Part shown: in pieces, positions 19,850 to 59,989 of the stretch
Layout: each line of letters starts with the position of its first letter
How positions within the stretch are numbered: position 1 is the first letter of the stretch
NCBI RefSeq assembly: GCF_016925495.1
Contig: NZ_CP070491.1
Coordinates: 2,170,001 to 2,234,000 of the forward strand
From: Methylococcus sp. EFPC2
GTDB lineage: Bacteria > Pseudomonadota > Gammaproteobacteria > Methylococcales > Methylococcaceae
Length of the DNA: 64,000 nucleotides
Direction of reading: 5' to 3'
Position numbers and translations under genes: made by a program
The notes under the pieces: model-generated
Seen by the model: the letters and a program-made list of their open reading frames with translations, nothing else
Told to the model about the DNA's origin: nothing
Database searches by the model: none

Positions 19850-20277
19850 CTCCCCCTCGCCAGCCGGGATCACCCATCTTTCTGCTCCCCCGCCTATCTC
19901 CACAACCGCGACCATCCATCTTTCTGCTACCCCGCCTCTCTCCAGCGGGGACCATCCATCTTTCCCCTCCCCCTCTCAGGGGGAGGGCAGGGTGGGGGTT
20001 GAGCCTTGATCTGTGCGCTGAACTTCGACCTTGCTTCTTCGCCCGAACATCCCACCTCCATCCCAGTCTCCCAATCGCAAACGTCGCTTCAGTCGCGACC
20101 TTCCCCCTCTTAGGGGGAAGGGGCAATAGAGACTATTCTTTCCCCTCCCCCTTCCAGGGGGAGGGCCAGGGTGGGGGTTGAGCCGTGATCTATGCGCTGA
20201 ACTTCGACCTTGCTTCTTCGCCCGAACATCCCACCTCCATCCCAGTCTTCCAATCGCAAACGTCGCTTCAGTCGCGA
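19850..20277. repeat. palindromic repeat field with a ~179-bp direct duplication
   Basis: After carA the sequence becomes a chain of CCCTCCCCCT..AGGGGGAGGG hairpins with GGTTGGGATGGGGGT or GGCAGGGTGGGGGTT tails. A segment beginning GATCTGTGCGCTGAACTTCG recurs 179 bases later with few changes, and again near 41265. Each copy ends in a small hairpin followed by a conserved GTTTGCGATTGG (read on the minus strand). Confidence 0.8.
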
Positions 20278-21190
20278 CCTTCCCCCTGCAAGGGGGAAGG
20301 TTGGGATGGGGGTTTTGCGCCTGTAGAAGTCTTCGCACCCCAGGACTTGATGTACGTATCGGGTGCTCTACCCCCTCCCTGACCCTCCCCCTGCAAGGGA
20401 GAGGGAGTGAAGACTTTTCAACTTTGCTAAACCCCTTCCCCTGCAAGGGGGAAGGTTGAGATGGGGGTTTTGTGCCTGTAGCAGTCTTCGCACCCCAGGA
20501 CTTGATGTAAGTATCGAGTGCTCTACCCCCTCCCTACCCTCCCCCTGCGAGGGAGAGGGACTGAAGACTTTTCAACTTTGCTAAACCCCTTCCCCCTGCA
20601 AGGGGGAAGGTTGGGATGGGGGTTTTGCGCCTGTAGCAGTCTTCGCACCCCAGGACGTGAGTAAGTATCGAGTGCTCTACCCCCTCCCTACCCTCCCCCT
20701 GCAAGGGAGAGGGAGTGAAGACTTTTCAACTTTGCTAAACCCCTTCCCCCTGCAAGGGGGAAGGTTGGGATGGGGGTTTTGCGCCTGTAGCGGTCTTCGC
20801 ACCTCAGGACTTGATGTAAGTATCGAGTGCTCTACCCCCTCCCTACCCTCCCCCTGCAAGGGAGAGGGAGTGAAGACTTTTCAACTTTGCTAAACCCCTT
20901 CCCCCTGCAAGGGGGAAGGTTGGGATGGGGGTTTTGCGCCTGTAGCGGCCTTCGCACCCCAGGACGTGAGTAAGTATCGAGTGCTCTACCCCCTCCCTAC
21001 CCTCCCCCTGCAAGGGAGAGGGAGTGAAGACTTTTCAACTTTGCTAAACCCCTTCCCCTGCAAGGGAGAAGGTTGGGATGGGGGTTTTGCGCCTGTAGCG
21101 GTCTTCGCACCTCAGGATTTGACGCCAAGTGTTGAGCGCTCTAGCCCCTCCCTCCCCCCCCTGCAAAAGGGAGAGGGAGTGAAAACTTTT
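20278..21190. repeat. tandem array of six ~154-bp units
   Basis: Units begin near 20278, 20433, 20588, 20742, 20896 and 21051, so the period is 154 +/- 1. Each unit carries the palindrome CCTTCCCCCT-GCA-AGGGGGAAGG, a TTGGGATGGGGGTTTTGCGC segment, a unique ~60-base spacer, and a second palindrome of the CCCTCCCCCTGCAAGGGAGAGGG type, then AAGACTTTTCAACTTTGC. Copies differ at a few positions (for example GTAGCAG/GTAGCGG). Short open frames across it are repeat translation. Confidence 0.9.
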
Positions 21191-21277
21191 CGTCTTCCAG
21201 CGCAGACATAGCCCCATTCAGATGCCCCGACACCCACAACATAACGCCCTACCCGCCGACGCCACAGCCGCCGAACG

Positions 21278-32605: not shown

Positions 32606-32621
32606 TGTGAACGGGTTCACA
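32606..32621. promoter_or_regulatory. consensus CRP/FNR-family binding site
   Basis: TGTGAACGGGTTCACA is a perfect TGTGA-N6-TCACA palindrome, the core consensus of CRP/Vfr. Its centre is 109 bases before the ATG at 32723 and 184 bases before the start of the divergent gene at 32429. A -10-like AATGTT at 32643-32648 would place a start site near 32655, giving a class II (-41.5) arrangement for the plus-strand gene. Confidence 0.6.
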
Positions 32622-32655
32622 CTTTTATGCCGCACTCCGTGCAATGTTTGGCCCG

Positions 32656-32694
32656 ACCGATAAAGACACGCGGTTTTATCGGTTGCTTTAGCAA
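32656..32694 (+). promoter_or_regulatory. two leader hairpins before the orphan gene
   Basis: ACCGATAAA (32656-32664) pairs with TTTATCGGT (32675-32683), a perfect 9-bp inverted repeat with a 10-base loop, and TTGC-TTTA-GCAA follows at once. No long T-run follows the first stem. They could be an RNA leader structure, a weak terminator or an operator. Confidence 0.45.
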
Positions 32695-32722
32695 TCTTGT
32701 AATCACGGAAAAGGAAACGCTC

Positions 32723-33211
32723 ATGAACGCGAATCGTATCAATGCGAGCCTGACTCAGGAAAATATCGACGCTGCCTTGGCGCTGGTCAACTCCCTGCTG
32801 CAGCAATTGCCCTTCCTGATCGATCTGAGCCCTGATGAACGGAAAGGAATGGTGAAATTCGGCGAGAAAAACCGCTCGTTCGTGGTAAAAGCCGGTGCGC
32901 TCGCGGCACAGCATCCGGAAATCCTGCCCGGCGGATTCAGCCTGGAAGACATGAAGCGCCATGTCAATCTGGTGGAGACGCTTTATCCCATCCAGTTGGC
33001 TTTGGCCAATTTGCTCGGCAAGGTGGAAGACACCTACTATGCCGCCGGCAGCCAGGCTTATACCGCTGCACTGCATGTCTACACCTATACCAAGGCGGCA
33101 CATGTCGCTAATGGGGCATTGGAAGATGCCCTCGACGATCTCGGCCGCCGCTTCATTCGTCGCTCCCGCACGACAGACAAGTCGACTGCCGGGCAAGCCG
33201 TTCCGGCCTGA
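32723..33211 (+). CDS. orphan alpha-helical protein of unknown function
   Basis: A 162-residue cytoplasmic protein with no signal peptide or membrane helix. It is predicted mostly helical, with a central LSPDERKGMVKFGEKNRSFV segment and later VEDTYYAAGSQAYTAALHVY, AYxAAL-like, followed by a polar basic tail. Proteins with an LTPEER-KxGDKSxxFV pattern occur as unnamed families in several phyla, as I recall, but no function is known to me. The ATG at 32723 is chosen because AAAAGGAAA precedes it. It has its own CRP-like site and leader hairpins, and is followed by a 21-bp tandem array and a terminator. Confidence 0.75.
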   Translation: MNANRINASLTQENIDAALALVNSLLQQLPFLIDLSPDERKGMVKFGEKNRSFVVKAGALAAQHPEILPGGFSLEDMKRHVNLVETLYPIQLALANLLGKVEDTYYAAGSQAYTAALHVYTYTKAAHVANGALEDALDDLGRRFIRRSRTTDKSTAGQAVPA

Positions 33212-33377
33212 TGCTGTGTTGGCATAGTGCTTCTTCCATGTCGTTCGACAGGACCGGGATAAACAGTAGACGGTCCGTCTCGTTCGTCCCGGACTCGTCG
33301 AACGATGCCTTTCACACGCTCCACCCGCTTCATCCATCGCTCCCATAGATCGTCGCTCATCGGCCTATCGGCCATCC

Positions 33378-33776
33378 ATCTTTTCAATCGAAGCGCGGAT
33401 CGACGCGATAGTTCTTTCCACTCCTGCCATCGATCCGTCCATGTTTTCAAGTCATCGATCCATGTAAAGCAGGGATCGTTCCATGTTTGTGATAGAACGA
33501 TGCATCTTTTTCACGCATCGATCCATGTTGAATATGGATCGATGCATGAATTCGGTACGTCACTCTATGTTCGACATACATCGTTGCATCATTTTGGTAC
33601 GTCGTTCCATCCCGCGCATGGACGCATGTATCATTTTTATACACCCGTCTATGGCGAAGATGGAACGATGCATCTTTTTGATACAGCGTTCCATGAAGTT
33701 CATGCAACGATGTATGCCGCCCATGGATCGTTCCATGACTATCATAGACGGTTGCCTCATCCCTATGTCCAACTGC
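33378..33776 (+). repeat. 21-bp tandem array (42-bp higher-order period)
   Basis: The motif A-W-C-G-W-T-S-C-A-T-S-N6-A-T-R-S repeats every 21 bases, with the CAT anchored (first base of the following codon) at 33441, 33462, 33483 and so on to 33735 without a single slip. Less perfect units reach back to about 33378. From 33483 to 33756 the base two before the anchor alternates strictly C, G, C, G, so the true period is 42. Because 21 is a multiple of 3, several frames on both strands stay open. Confidence 0.9.
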
Positions 33777-33785
33777 GGCAATTGA
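33483..33785 (+). CDS. heptad-repeat peptide encoded by the 21-bp array
   Basis: Fourteen consecutive heptads of the form [M/I]-x-x-[M/I/V]-polar-R-[C/S], for example MLNMDRC and MKFMQRC, with Cys and Ser alternating. Hydrophobic residues at positions 1 and 4 suggest a coiled coil. Of the open frames through the array this one is best supported: differences between units fall at third codon positions (CGA/CGT, TGC/TGT, TCC/TCT, ATA/ATG). AGGG lies about 8 bases before the ATG. A TAA at 33465 closes the frame one unit upstream, so earlier heptads would be outside the gene. Alternatives are a 188-residue frame at 33305-33871, or no protein at all. Confidence 0.4.
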   Translation: MFVIERCIFFTHRSMLNMDRCMNSVRHSMFDIHRCIILVRRSIPRMDACIIFIHPSMAKMERCIFLIQRSMKFMQRCMPPMDRSMTIIDGCLIPMSNCGN

Positions 33786-33890
33786 CACAATGGTGCGTCG
33801 CGTTTGCGCCGATTGCTCCGTTTTTTCGGCTTTTCACCGTCAGCTTTGACCGTGAAGCGCCGGGGAGTTAATTTAGGCCATGTCTGAATT

Positions 33891-33910
33891 AGCCGGTGAA
33901 CCGGCTTTTT
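33891..33910 (+). terminator. rho-independent terminator after the repeat array
   Basis: AGCCGG-TGAA-CCGGCT is a 6-bp stem with a tetraloop, followed by TTTTT. It is the first clear terminator after 32723 on the plus strand, so the orphan gene and the array are probably on one transcript. Confidence 0.75.
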
Positions 33911-34009: not shown

Positions 34010-35075
34010 GCAATTGGAGGTTTGGGATAGGGTTTTGTGCTTGAAACGGCTTTCTAATCTCGGGACTTGACGTAAAAAGCATCGAACGTTCTACCCCCAC
34101 CCTGCCCTCCCCCTGCAAGGGGGAGGGGATTGAAGACATTTCAACTGTTCGCGCAGACGCATCCTGCCTTCGCCCTGCAAGGGAGAGGGGTTGAAGACTT
34201 TTCAACTGTTAGCGAAGACGTAGCCTTTATTAAGTCAATCCGAGACCCTGGTCGGTTGTTTGTGGGAGCGGGCTTTAGCCTGCGAAGATCGCGGCCTGAA
34301 GGCCGCTCCCATCCTGAGCTATTTAGGTCGCGTTGCCATGAAAGTTGTTAAGGGAACACTTTGATTGTAAGCATCGAGCGTTCTACCCCCACCCTGCCCT
34401 CCCCCTTCCAGGGGGAGGGGATTGAAGATACTTCAACCATTAGCGCAGATGCATCCTGCCTTCGCCCTGCGAGGGAGAGGGGATTGAAGACTTTTTAACT
34501 GTTAGCGAAGACGTAGCCTTTATTAAGTCAATCCGAGACTCTGGTCGGTTGTTTGTGGGAGCGGGCTTTAGCCTGCGAAGATCGCGGCCTGGAGGCCGCT
34601 CCCACCCTGAGCTATTTAGGTCGCGTTGCCATGAAAGTTGTTAAGCGAACACCTTGATCGTAAATATCGAGGGTTCTACCCCCACCCTGCCCTCCCCCTG
34701 CAAGGGGGAGGGGATTGAAGATACTTCAACCATTAGCGCAGACGCATCCTGCCCTCGCCCTGCAAGGGGGAGGGGTTGAAGACTTTTTAACTGTTAGCGA
34801 AGACGTAGCCTTTATTAAGATGGCCCGAGACCCTGATCAGTAATTTGTGGGAGCAGGCTTGAGCCAGCGAAGATCGCGGCCTGGAGGCCGCTCCCACCAT
34901 GAGCTATTTAGGTCGCGTTGCCATGAAAGTTGTTAAGCGAACACCTTGATCGTAAATATCGAGGGTTCTACCCCCACCCTGCCCCCCTGCAAGGGGGAGG
35001 GGATTGAAGATACTTCAACCATTAGCGCAGATGCATCCTGCCCTCGCCCTGCAAGGGGAGGGGATGACACGGCGT
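34010..35075. repeat. tandem array of ~292-bp units
   Basis: The landmark GTTCTACCCCCACCCTGCC recurs near 34088, 34380, 34672 and 34964, a period of 292 bases, with the last unit partial. Each unit holds two CCCTCCCCCT-GCA-AGGGGGAGGG palindromes, a TTGAAGA..TTCAAC spacer, GCGAAGACGTAGCCTTTATTAAG, and a ~50-bp inverted repeat beginning GTGGGAGC and ending GCTCCCAC (34262-34312, 34555-34604, 34847-34896). Part of the unit is homologous to the 154-bp array at 20.3-21.2 kb, in the same orientation. Confidence 0.9.
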
Positions 35076-44109: not shown

Positions 44110-44531
44110 TCCCAGTCCAGACTACCCCTTGCGCCTTCTAGGGGGAAGGTCGCGACTGAAGCGACGCTTGCGATTGGAAGGTCGCGATTCAAGCGACGTT
44201 TACGATTGGGAAGGTTGGGATGGGGATGGAGACCGAGGATTGATCTGGACGCAGATTGCTCGGGATTATGCTGGGTTATGACCCCCACCCTGCCCTCCCC
44301 CTGGAAGGGGGAGGGAACCGAAGACCCGGGCTTCCCCTTCCCCCTCTCGGGGGGAAGGTTGGGATGGGGGTGGAGACTGAGGATTAATCTGGACGCAGAT
44401 TGCTCGGGATTATGCTGGGTTATGACCCCCACCCTGCCCTCCCCCTGGAAGGGGGAGGGAACCGAAGACCCGGACTTCCCCTTCCCCCTCTCAGGGGGAA
44501 GGTTGGGATGGGGGTGGAGCTTATCGGGCGG
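44110..44531. repeat. ~144-bp direct repeats with palindromes
   Basis: ACCCCCACCCTGCCCTCCCCC starts at 44281 and again at 44425. The unit also includes CTTCCCCCTCTCGGGGGGAAGG with its TTGGGATGGGGGTGGAG tail and a spacer with CTGGACGCAGATTGCTCGGG. Before it, at 44148-44209, two small hairpins each followed by a GATTGG-ended tail lie back to back. Confidence 0.85.
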
Positions 44532-56886: not shown

Positions 56887-58394
56887 TCGTCCTCGCCACC
56901 CTCAACGCCCGCTATATCCATGCGTCGCTGGGATTGCGCTACCTGTTCGCCAACATGGGCGAGTTGGAAGCCGATACGGATATCATGGAATTCATCATCG
57001 GCGACCGGCCGGCGGACATCGTCGAGAAACTGCTGGCGAAATCACCTCGTATCATCGGGCTGGGCGTTTACATCTGGAACGCCGAAGAAACCCTCAAGGT
57101 CGTCGAACTGCTCAAGCAGGTGGCGCCGGAAATCAAGGTGGTGCTGGGCGGCCCGGAAGTCAGCCATGAATGCGAGGAACAAGCCATCGTGGCGCTGGCC
57201 GACCACGTGATCTGCGGCCCCGGCGACCTGGCCTTCGCCGCCTTGTGCCGGGATATTTTGAAGGGCGAAGCAGCGCCGCGCATCATCCGCCCCGAAATGC
57301 CGGACCTGAAGGACATCGCCCTGCCCTACCGGCTCTACACCGATCACGACATTGCCCACCGGCTGATCTACGTGGAAGCCTCGCGCGGTTGTCCGTTCAA
57401 GTGCGAGTTCTGTCTATCGGCGCTGGACAAGACCGCCTGGCCTTACGAGTTGGAACGCTTCCTGGCCGAAATGGACGCGCTGTACCGGCGCGGCGCCCGG
57501 CATTTCAAATTCGTCGACCGCACGTTCAACCTGAACGTGAAGGCCAGCCTGCGCATCCTGGAGTTTTTCCTGGAGCGGCTGGACGAAACCTTGTTCCTGC
57601 ATTTCGAGGTGATCCCGGATCATCTGCCCGACCCGCTGAAAGAGGCCCTGGCCCGCTTTCCCGAGGGCTCGCTGCAACTGGAGATCGGCGTGCAGACCTT
57701 CGATCCCGAGGTCCAGTCCCTCATCAGCCGGCGTCAGGACAACGACAAAACGGCCGCCAATCTGCGCTGGCTGCGCGAACACACCGGAGCACACATCCAC
57801 GCGGACCTCATCGCAGGGCTGCCGGGCGAAGACCTGACCAGCTTCGCACTAGGCTTCGACCGGCTGGTGAAGCTGGACCCGCAGGAAATCCAGGTCGGCA
57901 TCCTCAAGCGCCTGCGCGGCGCGCCCATTGCCCGTCACACCGTGACGGCAGACATGCACTACAGCCCGCATCCGCCTTACACCGTGGTGCGCACCGGCCG
58001 CCTGGATTTCGCCACCCTGCAGCGCATCAACCGCTACGCCCGCTACTGGGATCTGGTCGGCAATTCCGGCCGCTTCTCCGTTACCCGCCCGCTACTGCTC
58101 AGCGATACGCCATTCGAGCGCTTCATGGCCTTCAGCGACTGGCTTTACGCCACCACCGGCAAGACACACCAATTGGCCTTGGACCGGCTGTACGACTGGG
58201 TCTACCGCTGGCTGACCGAGCAGGGCGGCGTACCGGCCGAAGCCGCCCATGAGGCCGTCGCCGCCGATTTCCACGCCAGCGGCACACGCAGCATTCCGCC
58301 GTTCCTGCAGGCCACCACCGCCCCCATCCCGCCGCGGATTAAGAGCGACCCCGGCCACGCGCCCAAACGGCAGGCACGGCACTTGGCCGATTAA
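56883..58394 (+). CDS. B12-binding radical SAM protein (DUF4080-like C terminus)
   Basis: A 503-residue protein. The N-terminal ~130 residues form a cobalamin-binding-type Rossmann domain (GLGVYIWNAEETLKVVELL, VVLGGPEVS). The radical SAM core follows with ASRGCPFKCEFCLSAL, giving the C-x3-C-x2-C cluster motif, and LEIGVQTFDPEVQSLISRRQ. The C-terminal domain matches my memory of DUF4080. Substrate unknown. The ATG overlaps the epmA stop by four bases. Its last six codons have been duplicated downstream (see 58376-58670). Confidence 0.88.
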   Translation: MIVLATLNARYIHASLGLRYLFANMGELEADTDIMEFIIGDRPADIVEKLLAKSPRIIGLGVYIWNAEETLKVVELLKQVAPEIKVVLGGPEVSHECEEQAIVALADHVICGPGDLAFAALCRDILKGEAAPRIIRPEMPDLKDIALPYRLYTDHDIAHRLIYVEASRGCPFKCEFCLSALDKTAWPYELERFLAEMDALYRRGARHFKFVDRTFNLNVKASLRILEFFLERLDETLFLHFEVIPDHLPDPLKEALARFPEGSLQLEIGVQTFDPEVQSLISRRQDNDKTAANLRWLREHTGAHIHADLIAGLPGEDLTSFALGFDRLVKLDPQEIQVGILKRLRGAPIARHTVTADMHYSPHPPYTVVRTGRLDFATLQRINRYARYWDLVGNSGRFSVTRPLLLSDTPFERFMAFSDWLYATTGKTHQLALDRLYDWVYRWLTEQGGVPAEAAHEAVAADFHASGTRSIPPFLQATTAPIPPRIKSDPGHAPKRQARHLAD

Positions 58395-58670
58395 ACCCGC
58401 GAACCCGTTCAGGCTTCGTCGTCTTCCAGTTCCGGCAAACCCAGTTCCTCGGGCCAGACCTGGCTGGCCTCCTCCGCCGGCAAGGACTCCACCTTGACCA
58501 GTTGGCGGCCAATCTGGCGAGTACGAACCTCGGCCTGGTCGATGGTGTTGCGCGCCTCGTCCAGCTTCTTGCGGGTCTTGGCCAGCACGTCGCCGAACTT
58601 CCCGAATTCGGTCTTGACCGCCCCCAACACCTTCCACACCTCGCTGGAGCGCTTCTCGATAGCCAGGGTA
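58376..58670 (-). pseudogene. duplicated 3' fragment of rmuC
   Basis: The minus-strand frame ending at 58409 gives 76 residues from VWKVLGAVKTEFG to LPELEDDEA, nearly identical to the RmuC C terminus encoded 294 bases away. The duplicated block also includes the last codons of the radical SAM gene (HLAD-stop), visible at 58382 and again at 58676. Changes such as PAEEASQVW versus PVDDARQVW show the duplication is not recent. No start or promoter of its own. Confidence 0.9.
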
Positions 58671-58702
58671 CGGCATTTGGCCGATTAAGCCCGCGAACCC
58701 GT

Positions 58703-59989
58703 TCAGGCTTCGTCGTCTTCCAGTTCCGGCAAGGCCAGGTCTTCTGGCCAGACCTGGCGGGCATCATCGACCGGTAGAGACTCCACCTTGACCAGTTGGC
58801 GGCCGATCTGGCGGGTGCGGACCTCGGCCTGGTCGATGGTGTTGCGCGCCTCGTCCAGCTTCTTGCGGGTCTTGGCCAGCACGTCGCCGAACTTGCCGAA
58901 TTCGGTCTTCACCGCCCCCAACACCTTCCACACCTCGCTGGAGCGCTTCTCGATAGCCAGGGTGCGGAAGCCCATCTGCAAGCTGTTGAGGATGGCCGAC
59001 AGCGTGGTCGGCCCGGTGACGGTGACGCGGAAGTCGCGCTGCAACTGGTCGAACAGGCCCGGCCTGCGTATCACCTCGGCATACAAGCCCTCGACGGGCA
59101 GGAACAGCAGGCCGAAATCGGTAGTGTGCGGCGGCTCCAGGTATTTGTCGCGGATGGACTTCGCCTCGTTGCGGATGCGCGTTTCCAGCGCCTTGCCCAA
59201 TTCCTCCATGGCCTGCACCTCGCCGACTTCGCGGGCGTCGACCAGTTTCTGGTAGTCCTCCAGCGGGAACTTGGCATCGATAGGCAACCAGACCGTGCTG
59301 CCCTGCTCGTCGCGGCCGGGCAGGCGGATGGCGAACTCCACCCGCTCGTTGCTGCCCGGCCGGGTGGCCACGTTGCGGGCGTACTGGTCGACGGTGAGCA
59401 TTTGTTCCAGCAGGTTTTCCAGTTGAACTTCGCCCCAGGTGCCGCGCACCTTGACGTTGGTGAGTACCTTTTTCAGATCGCCCACCCCGCTGGCCAGGCT
59501 CTGCATTTCGCCCAGCCCCTTGTGCACCTGCTCCAGGCGCTCGCTGACCAGCTTGAATGACTCGCCCAGACGCTGCTCCAGGGTATTGTGCAGCTTCTCG
59601 TCCACGGTCTGGCGCATCTGTTCCAGCTTCTGGTTGTTATCGACCTGGATGGCGGTCAGGCGCTGCTCCACGCTTAGGCGCAAGGTTTCGATGCTCTCCG
59701 CATTGCGCTGGCTGTGGCTGCTCAACTGCTGGCCCAGTTGCTCGCCCAAGCGGTGCAGTCCCGCAGCCAGTTCCTCGCGGTTCAGCGCCAGCGTCTGGTT
59801 GAGTTCCTGGCGATTGCCGACTATCTCCTCCCGCAGCCCGCGTTCCAAGCGCTCGATCTGGTCGCGCGCGGCATCCAGGCGCGCAAGCAATGCGGCGTTG
59901 CGGGCGGCGAGCCAGAACAGCAAGCCGAAGCTGATGAGAAAGCCCCCCGCCGGGACGCCCAATAACAGGTAGATCAATAAATCCGACAT
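58703..59989 (-). CDS. rmuC: DNA recombination protein RmuC
   Basis: A 428-residue protein linked to limiting DNA inversions and rearrangement in E. coli. It has one N-terminal membrane helix (IYLLLGVPAGGFLISFGLLF), a long coiled coil (about 35-175) and the RmuC nuclease-like domain (VKVRGTWGEVQLENLLEQML, VEFAIRLPGRDEQGSTVWLP IDAKFPLEDYQ, FLPVEGLYAEVIRRPGL). Its 3' end is the intact copy of the tandem duplication at the junction with the radical SAM gene. Confidence 0.94.
   Translation of the reverse strand: MSDLLIYLLLGVPAGGFLISFGLLFWLAARNAALLARLDAARDQIERLERGLREEIVGNRQELNQTLALNREELAAGLHRLGEQLGQQLSSHSQRNAESIETLRLSVEQRLTAIQVDNNQKLEQMRQTVDEKLHNTLEQRLGESFKLVSERLEQVHKGLGEMQSLASGVGDLKKVLTNVKVRGTWGEVQLENLLEQMLTVDQYARNVATRPGSNERVEFAIRLPGRDEQGSTVWLPIDAKFPLEDYQKLVDAREVGEVQAMEELGKALETRIRNEAKSIRDKYLEPPHTTDFGLLFLPVEGLYAEVIRRPGLFDQLQRDFRVTVTGPTTLSAILNSLQMGFRTLAIEKRSSEVWKVLGAVKTEFGKFGDVLAKTRKKLDEARNTIDQAEVRTRQIGRQLVKVESLPVDDARQVWPEDLALPELEDDEA

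Follow-up and report, generated by a model that had tools for sequence, protein, structure and literature searches.

A gene for a small helical protein and a non-coding array of 21-bp repeats form a two-part unit that recurs in distant bacteria, with repeats that are unrelated in sequence. One copy lies in the window, the whole stretch of 64,000 nucleotides analysed here, which belongs to a host genome of 4.56 Mb. The arrays accompany the gene, hold a strict period and a two-fold symmetry, do not code for protein and lack base-pair covariation, and gene and array are duplicated jointly. An earlier note on this DNA knew of no described system with such a layout, and none was found for 21-bp tandem arrays in open-licence full texts. 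Searches by sequence, fold and RNA family failed as well, and on this basis the gene-plus-tract cassettes apparently represent an undescribed class. We infer that the tract functions in the form of DNA and is bound by the protein encoded beside it, here termed family A. The preferred mechanism, which is quite possible but short of probable, is that this protein, or one of its partners, assembles cooperatively on a symmetric tract with a 21-bp pitch.

Organization of the locus in the window

The locus contains the following features, in order of position.

32606–32621, no strand assigned: CRP-like dyad TGTGAACGGGTTCACA, an exact match, probably outside the conserved unit
32656–32683, plus strand: leader inverted repeat, ACCGATAAA (32656–32664) with TTTATCGGT (32675–32683), read directly
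32723–33211, plus strand: family A gene, encoding a 162-aa all-helical protein, based on an ORF with a ribosome-binding site, homologues and an AlphaFold2 model
33241–33305, plus strand: large inverted repeat between the family A gene and the array, read directly
33344–33427, no strand assigned: four weak array units, in phase, with profile scores 1.9–3.3 sd over background
33428–33763, no strand assigned: sixteen clear 21-bp units, non-coding, with a symmetric core about ATGNANCGNTNCAT and profile scores 3.8–5.9 sd over background
33891–33906, plus strand: terminator-like stem AGCCGGTGAACCGGCT followed by TTTT, past the array, near chance expectation

A good ribosome-binding site, GGAAAAGGAAACGCTC, precedes the 162-codon ORF. 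The earlier note had described the product as an orphan protein; the ORF stands, but homologues in several lineages show that the protein is not an orphan. The note had also assigned a CRP-like site, leader hairpins and a rho-independent terminator to the same unit. The CRP-like dyad is exact and is the sole match in the window, where 0.93 would be expected by chance with up to one mismatch. It is absent from the leaders of the two relatives that were aligned (L002 and L003), and its membership of the unit is therefore not upheld. The leader inverted repeats are visible in the sequence itself. The stem and T-run of the proposed terminator are present, but the number of terminator-like sites in the stretch (three, versus 1.7 expected) is close to chance.

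Within the gene–array gap, the large inverted repeat pairs TCGTTCGAC (33241–33249) with GTCGAACGA (33297–33305), and CCGGGA (33254–33259) with TCCCGG (33287–33292). No T-run follows it, and there is no terminator in the window's gap. It has no clear counterpart in L002, the gap of which aligns poorly.

The 21-bp array, also reported in the earlier note, is far above chance in the 64 kb. Nowhere else in the window does any period of 12–39 exceed the threshold of 0.45, and the array's score at period 21 is 8.9 sd above that of the remainder. Only about half of the positions are identical between units (0.449 at lag 21 and 0.533 at lag 42), and for this reason the array is missed by TRF with default scoring. 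Other arrays in the window, unrelated to the 21-bp array, are arranged around the palindrome CCCTCCCCCTGCAAGGGGGAGGG with much longer periods, at 34081–35067 (292 bp), 19959–21191 (155–309 bp) and 44208–44519 (144 bp). A tandem duplication of 294 bp, consisting of two copies of GC-rich sequence that match at 92%, is situated at 58376–58967.

Distribution of the genes and arrays

The family A protein has no credible relative in Pfam, NCBIfam, PHROG, PDB sequences or PDB folds. Its AlphaFold2 model is all-helical (mean pLDDT 88.5) and includes a 57-residue helix at residues 74–130. The gene is single-copy in the window's own genome. A first scan of named genomes, with the window protein alone as query, found nothing. 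The homologues now identified are 26–70% identical to the window protein and have a patchy distribution, with multiple copies and many truncated copies. They are present in 11 of 38 genomes of the window's own family, the Methylococcaceae, in 20 of 101 genomes of another gammaproteobacterial group and in 13 of 244 cyanobacterial genomes, while Accumulibacter and Rhodocyclaceae carry up to nine matches per genome. In L018, L019, L021, L038 and L040, the reading frame is lost at approximately residue 73–75; in L019 a long array remains, with about 25 units. A phage or plasmid origin was considered and rejected, as phages and viral contigs (IMG/VR) yielded no match and plasmids a single one, a homologue carried by a Thiodictyon plasmid. 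A role as a defence system was also rejected, since PADLOC gave one weak match, to one member only. The link to polysaccharide genes suggested by the position of the locus was not seen in the one annotated relative, the Thiodictyon homologue, which lies among metabolic genes.

The earlier note had proposed a search for arrays next to homologues of the protein, and such arrays are indeed found: an array whose period is exactly 21 lies within 1.5 kb downstream of 48 of the 76 near-complete family A homologues. This count uses a stricter length filter than a first survey, in which period 21 was the top period downstream of 51 of the 87 homologues with enough sequence, and upstream of seven. When the proteins are clustered at 70% identity, 25 of 38 clusters have a downstream array. 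By lineage, the counts are 10/15, 12/27, 6/8 and 20/25, with the Thiodictyon copy lacking a downstream array. As a control, the same criterion was applied to five samples of random 1.5-kb segments, and was passed by 12, 16, 2, 2 and 31 per 400 (0.5–8%), the last of these values reflecting repeats inside ORFs. The array usually lies no more than about 330 bp from the stop codon, and begins at the stop codon itself in L135 and L139; in some family A copies it is upstream of the gene. Many of the cyanobacterial copies (L115–L140) share an element resembling GGGAATNCTA, placed some 60 bp ahead of the start codon and close to the left-hand boundary of the homologous block. This element is perhaps a promoter.

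A second family of genes, B, was found via background sampling of a cyanobacterium. It comprises small helical proteins of 131–146 aa with the motif KYGKDSxEYEMAGG (L163:6934–7371, L177:7394–7786 and L223–L252), and there are 6–13 copies in each of six cyanobacterial genomes. None was found in the proteobacterial carriers of family A. The array is upstream in 27 of the 30 copies read and downstream in none; in the cyanobacterium of the background sampling it sits about 200 bp upstream of the genes. Family B belongs to no Pfam family and has no match among solved structures. The models of the two families are each built round one helix of 54–57 residues. Homology between A and B was nevertheless rejected, as profile comparison shows no similarity, and to judge from their sequences the two families are apparently unrelated.

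Strict spacing, symmetry and a sub-period are common to the arrays of both families. Units are spaced at exactly 21 bp in 472 of 521 steps for family A and in 194 of 207 for family B. Autocorrelation peaks sharply at 21, 42 and 63, and in family A is higher at lag 42 than at lag 21. The consensus has two-fold symmetry, with a mean z of 3.2 for A and 1.65 for B and values above 2 in 42 of 51 arrays for family A, and a 7-bp sub-period is evident (z 7.4 and 4.5, respectively). Array motifs are common to most pairs of proteins with more than 80% identity, to a minority of those at 50–80% and rarely to pairs below this. Non-coding arrays of period 14, composed of near-heptamers such as ATTAGTC/ATTGGTC, were observed in the cyanobacterium G684 (L168:3529, L171:7478, L171:14840 and L171:15791); these may have a connection with the 7-bp sub-period seen in the 21-bp arrays.

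In one cyanobacterium, two family A copies about 560 kb apart encode proteins that are 99% identical. Their common block of about 0.95 kb starts 77 bp ahead of the ATG and ends shortly past the array, and the flanks are unrelated except for one short dispersed repeat. Since the block spans both gene and array, the two are duplicated as one cassette, the edges of which show no evident terminal repeats. Sampling of this cyanobacterium gave 14 non-coding period-21 arrays per 800 kb, and that of the window's genome one per 400 kb; none was present in 231 kb of the Accumulibacter carrier G462, or in some 660 kb from genomes where family A was not found. Within the sampled sequence, non-coding period-21 arrays occur only in genomes carrying family A. 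No other gene family recurs beside the solitary arrays. A second 21-bp array in the window's own genome (G000:C1, at about 3,502,700; L159:2673–2870), non-coding, similar in style to that of the window and with the core CCACGGCCGTGG, lies between ordinary genes, without family A or B.

Coding, RNA and other explanations of the array

The earlier note had suggested that each unit might encode seven codons of a peptide, or that the array might be an RNA carried on the transcript of the gene. A heptad-repeat peptide, encoded on either strand, would be in keeping with a period that is a multiple of 3 and with the several frames open in the window. This is contradicted by the arrays as a whole, in which stop-free frames number 33 of 42, versus 31.3 expected from column-permuted arrays, and codon-position (period-3) variability has no pattern (mean z −0.2). 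In addition, the array of L002, the closest relative (protein 70% identical), has stops in all six frames, and the 3-bp harmonic is depleted in family A arrays, although somewhat raised in those of family B. A coding function is thus very improbable. Transcription of the array, alone or by read-through, could otherwise generate a string of RNA hairpins, acting as the scaffold of a protein-bound RNP or as a regulator or antitoxin. Many arrays fold far better than column-permuted ones, including that of the window (6.4–6.6 sd below, on both strands), and covariation of the arms reaches a z of about 3 in L007 and L026. However, folding is improved equally on both strands and the signal is weak in family B, an unbiased test found no overall covariation of the arms (combined z −0.1 for A and 0.0 for B), G–T pairs are not favoured over A–C pairs, both being as expected, and a search of Rfam gave chance-level matches only. 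A hairpin RNA with compensatory changes had appeared attractive in L007 and in a chosen-axis test (mean z 0.86), and was rejected on the unbiased test. A strand-specific folding was likewise discarded, as the asymmetry arose from the use of one null for both strands and was lost when each strand had its own null. A strong intrinsic terminator separates gene from array in 11 of the 51 loci, and follows an array in one, which speaks against the array being, as a rule, the tail of the gene's transcript. The lack of a terminator in the window's gap, together with the weak one past the array, makes co-transcription possible there, and an independently transcribed array RNA is possible in some loci. 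In general, an RNA function is unlikely; the equal folding of the strands, the lack of covariation and of G–T preference, and the terminators ahead of the array favour symmetric double-stranded sites.

Another possibility is a small selfish mobile cassette, of which the array would be a by-product or a functional end; its palindromic units would be generated and copied along with the gene, by a logic like that of REP sequences and their transposases, and the solitary arrays would be non-autonomous copies. This would agree with the duplicated block of gene and array, the patchy distribution, the multiple and truncated copies and the solitary arrays. On the other hand, the family A protein has no transposase-like fold and no catalytic motif, the edges of the cassette lack evident terminal repeats, and slippage or copying alone leaves unexplained why period 21 is found in every lineage and beside a second family. 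A selfish cassette is considered improbable, to much the same degree as an RNA. More doubtful again is a role for the array as a cis element acting locally on the neighbouring gene, such as a 3′ mRNA stabiliser, a termination zone or an operator array. The short distance between most arrays and the stop codon is consistent with such an element, whereas the solitary arrays beside unrelated genes, and the upstream arrays of family B and of some family A copies, are not. Moreover, 10–25 repeats exceed the normal need of local cis elements.

Proposed assembly on DNA and comparison with known systems

Assembly of a protein on the tract as DNA is the explanation preferred here. The locus would then be one copy of a cassette composed of a helical protein gene and a non-coding tract of symmetric DNA sites, the exact 21-bp spacing of which would correspond to two helical turns. 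The protein, or a partner, may bind the tract cooperatively as double-stranded DNA, generating a regular nucleoprotein stretch that could be comparable to the protein assemblies seen on iterons or centromeres. The sequence of the sites might diverge rapidly, while the spacing and two-fold symmetry needed by the assembly would be kept. Gene and tract would be copied together, and solitary tracts could be further sites or remnants. This reading is supported by the association across two phyla, the arrays of family B, the strict spacing, the symmetry, the block duplication and the confinement of the sampled arrays to family A genomes. Several observations count against it. Downstream of about 37% of family A homologues no array can be detected, the protein could not be matched to a DNA-binding fold or a known relative, and the 10.5-bp harmonic, expected for recognition of one face, is not enriched. 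Furthermore, no conserved recognition sequence was seen, as motifs are common to close relatives only, and most of the arrays sampled in the cyanobacterium adjoin neither family A nor family B.

Arrays beside two gene families and in two phyla have the same geometry, although their individual bases vary almost without constraint. This suggests that recognition of the tracts depends more on pitch and symmetry than on their sequence. A broader proposal, which is offered with slightly more reserve than the mechanism itself, is that of a widespread class in which at least two apparently unrelated helical families form a nucleoprotein fibre on sequence-variable, two-fold-symmetric tracts with a 21-bp pitch and a 7-bp sub-period, gene and tract moving as a cassette. 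If this is true, binding or fibre formation is predicted on any array of 21-bp pitch, and the repeat tracts in one cyanobacterium, which by extrapolation number more than 100 per genome, would be accounted for.

In iterons and plasmid centromeres (Rep/iterons, ParR/parC and TubR/tubC), a small protein gene lies beside evenly spaced DNA sites, and iterons of about 19–22 bp keep helical phase. Even helical phasing is also a feature of the present arrays, with exactly 21 bp in more than 90% of steps. However, iteron and centromere units are near-identical and usually upstream, whereas the units described here are strongly diverged, symmetric and mostly downstream, and no similarity to Rep, ParR or TubR was found by Pfam, NCBIfam or fold search. 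Type III toxin–antitoxin systems (ToxN/ToxI) again consist of one protein gene and a tandem array. ToxI differs in its upstream position, its repeats of about 36 nt and its RNA pseudoknot from the present arrays, which are mostly downstream, with period 21 and no covariation; Pfam and PADLOC gave no ToxN match for the family A protein.

REP/BIME sequences and REP-associated tyrosine transposases combine a protein gene with palindromic repeats, and solitary repeats are found elsewhere (PMC2817692, PMC8266576). All three elements have a parallel here. REPs are dispersed units without the strict 21-bp tandem period of the present arrays, and the family A protein, with its all-helical model, has no match to Y1 (HUH) transposases. 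Heptamer repeats (TAACTGA arrays) in Beggiatoaceae and cyanobacteria form intergenic arrays (PMC4679880). These resemble the present arrays, which have a 7-bp sub-period, in being intergenic and in occurring in both cyanobacteria and gammaproteobacteria (sulfur-oxidising in the case of TAACTGA). They consist, however, of one fixed heptamer and are often located just before start codons, while the arrays described here have period 21, a sequence that varies with lineage and an adjacent gene family.
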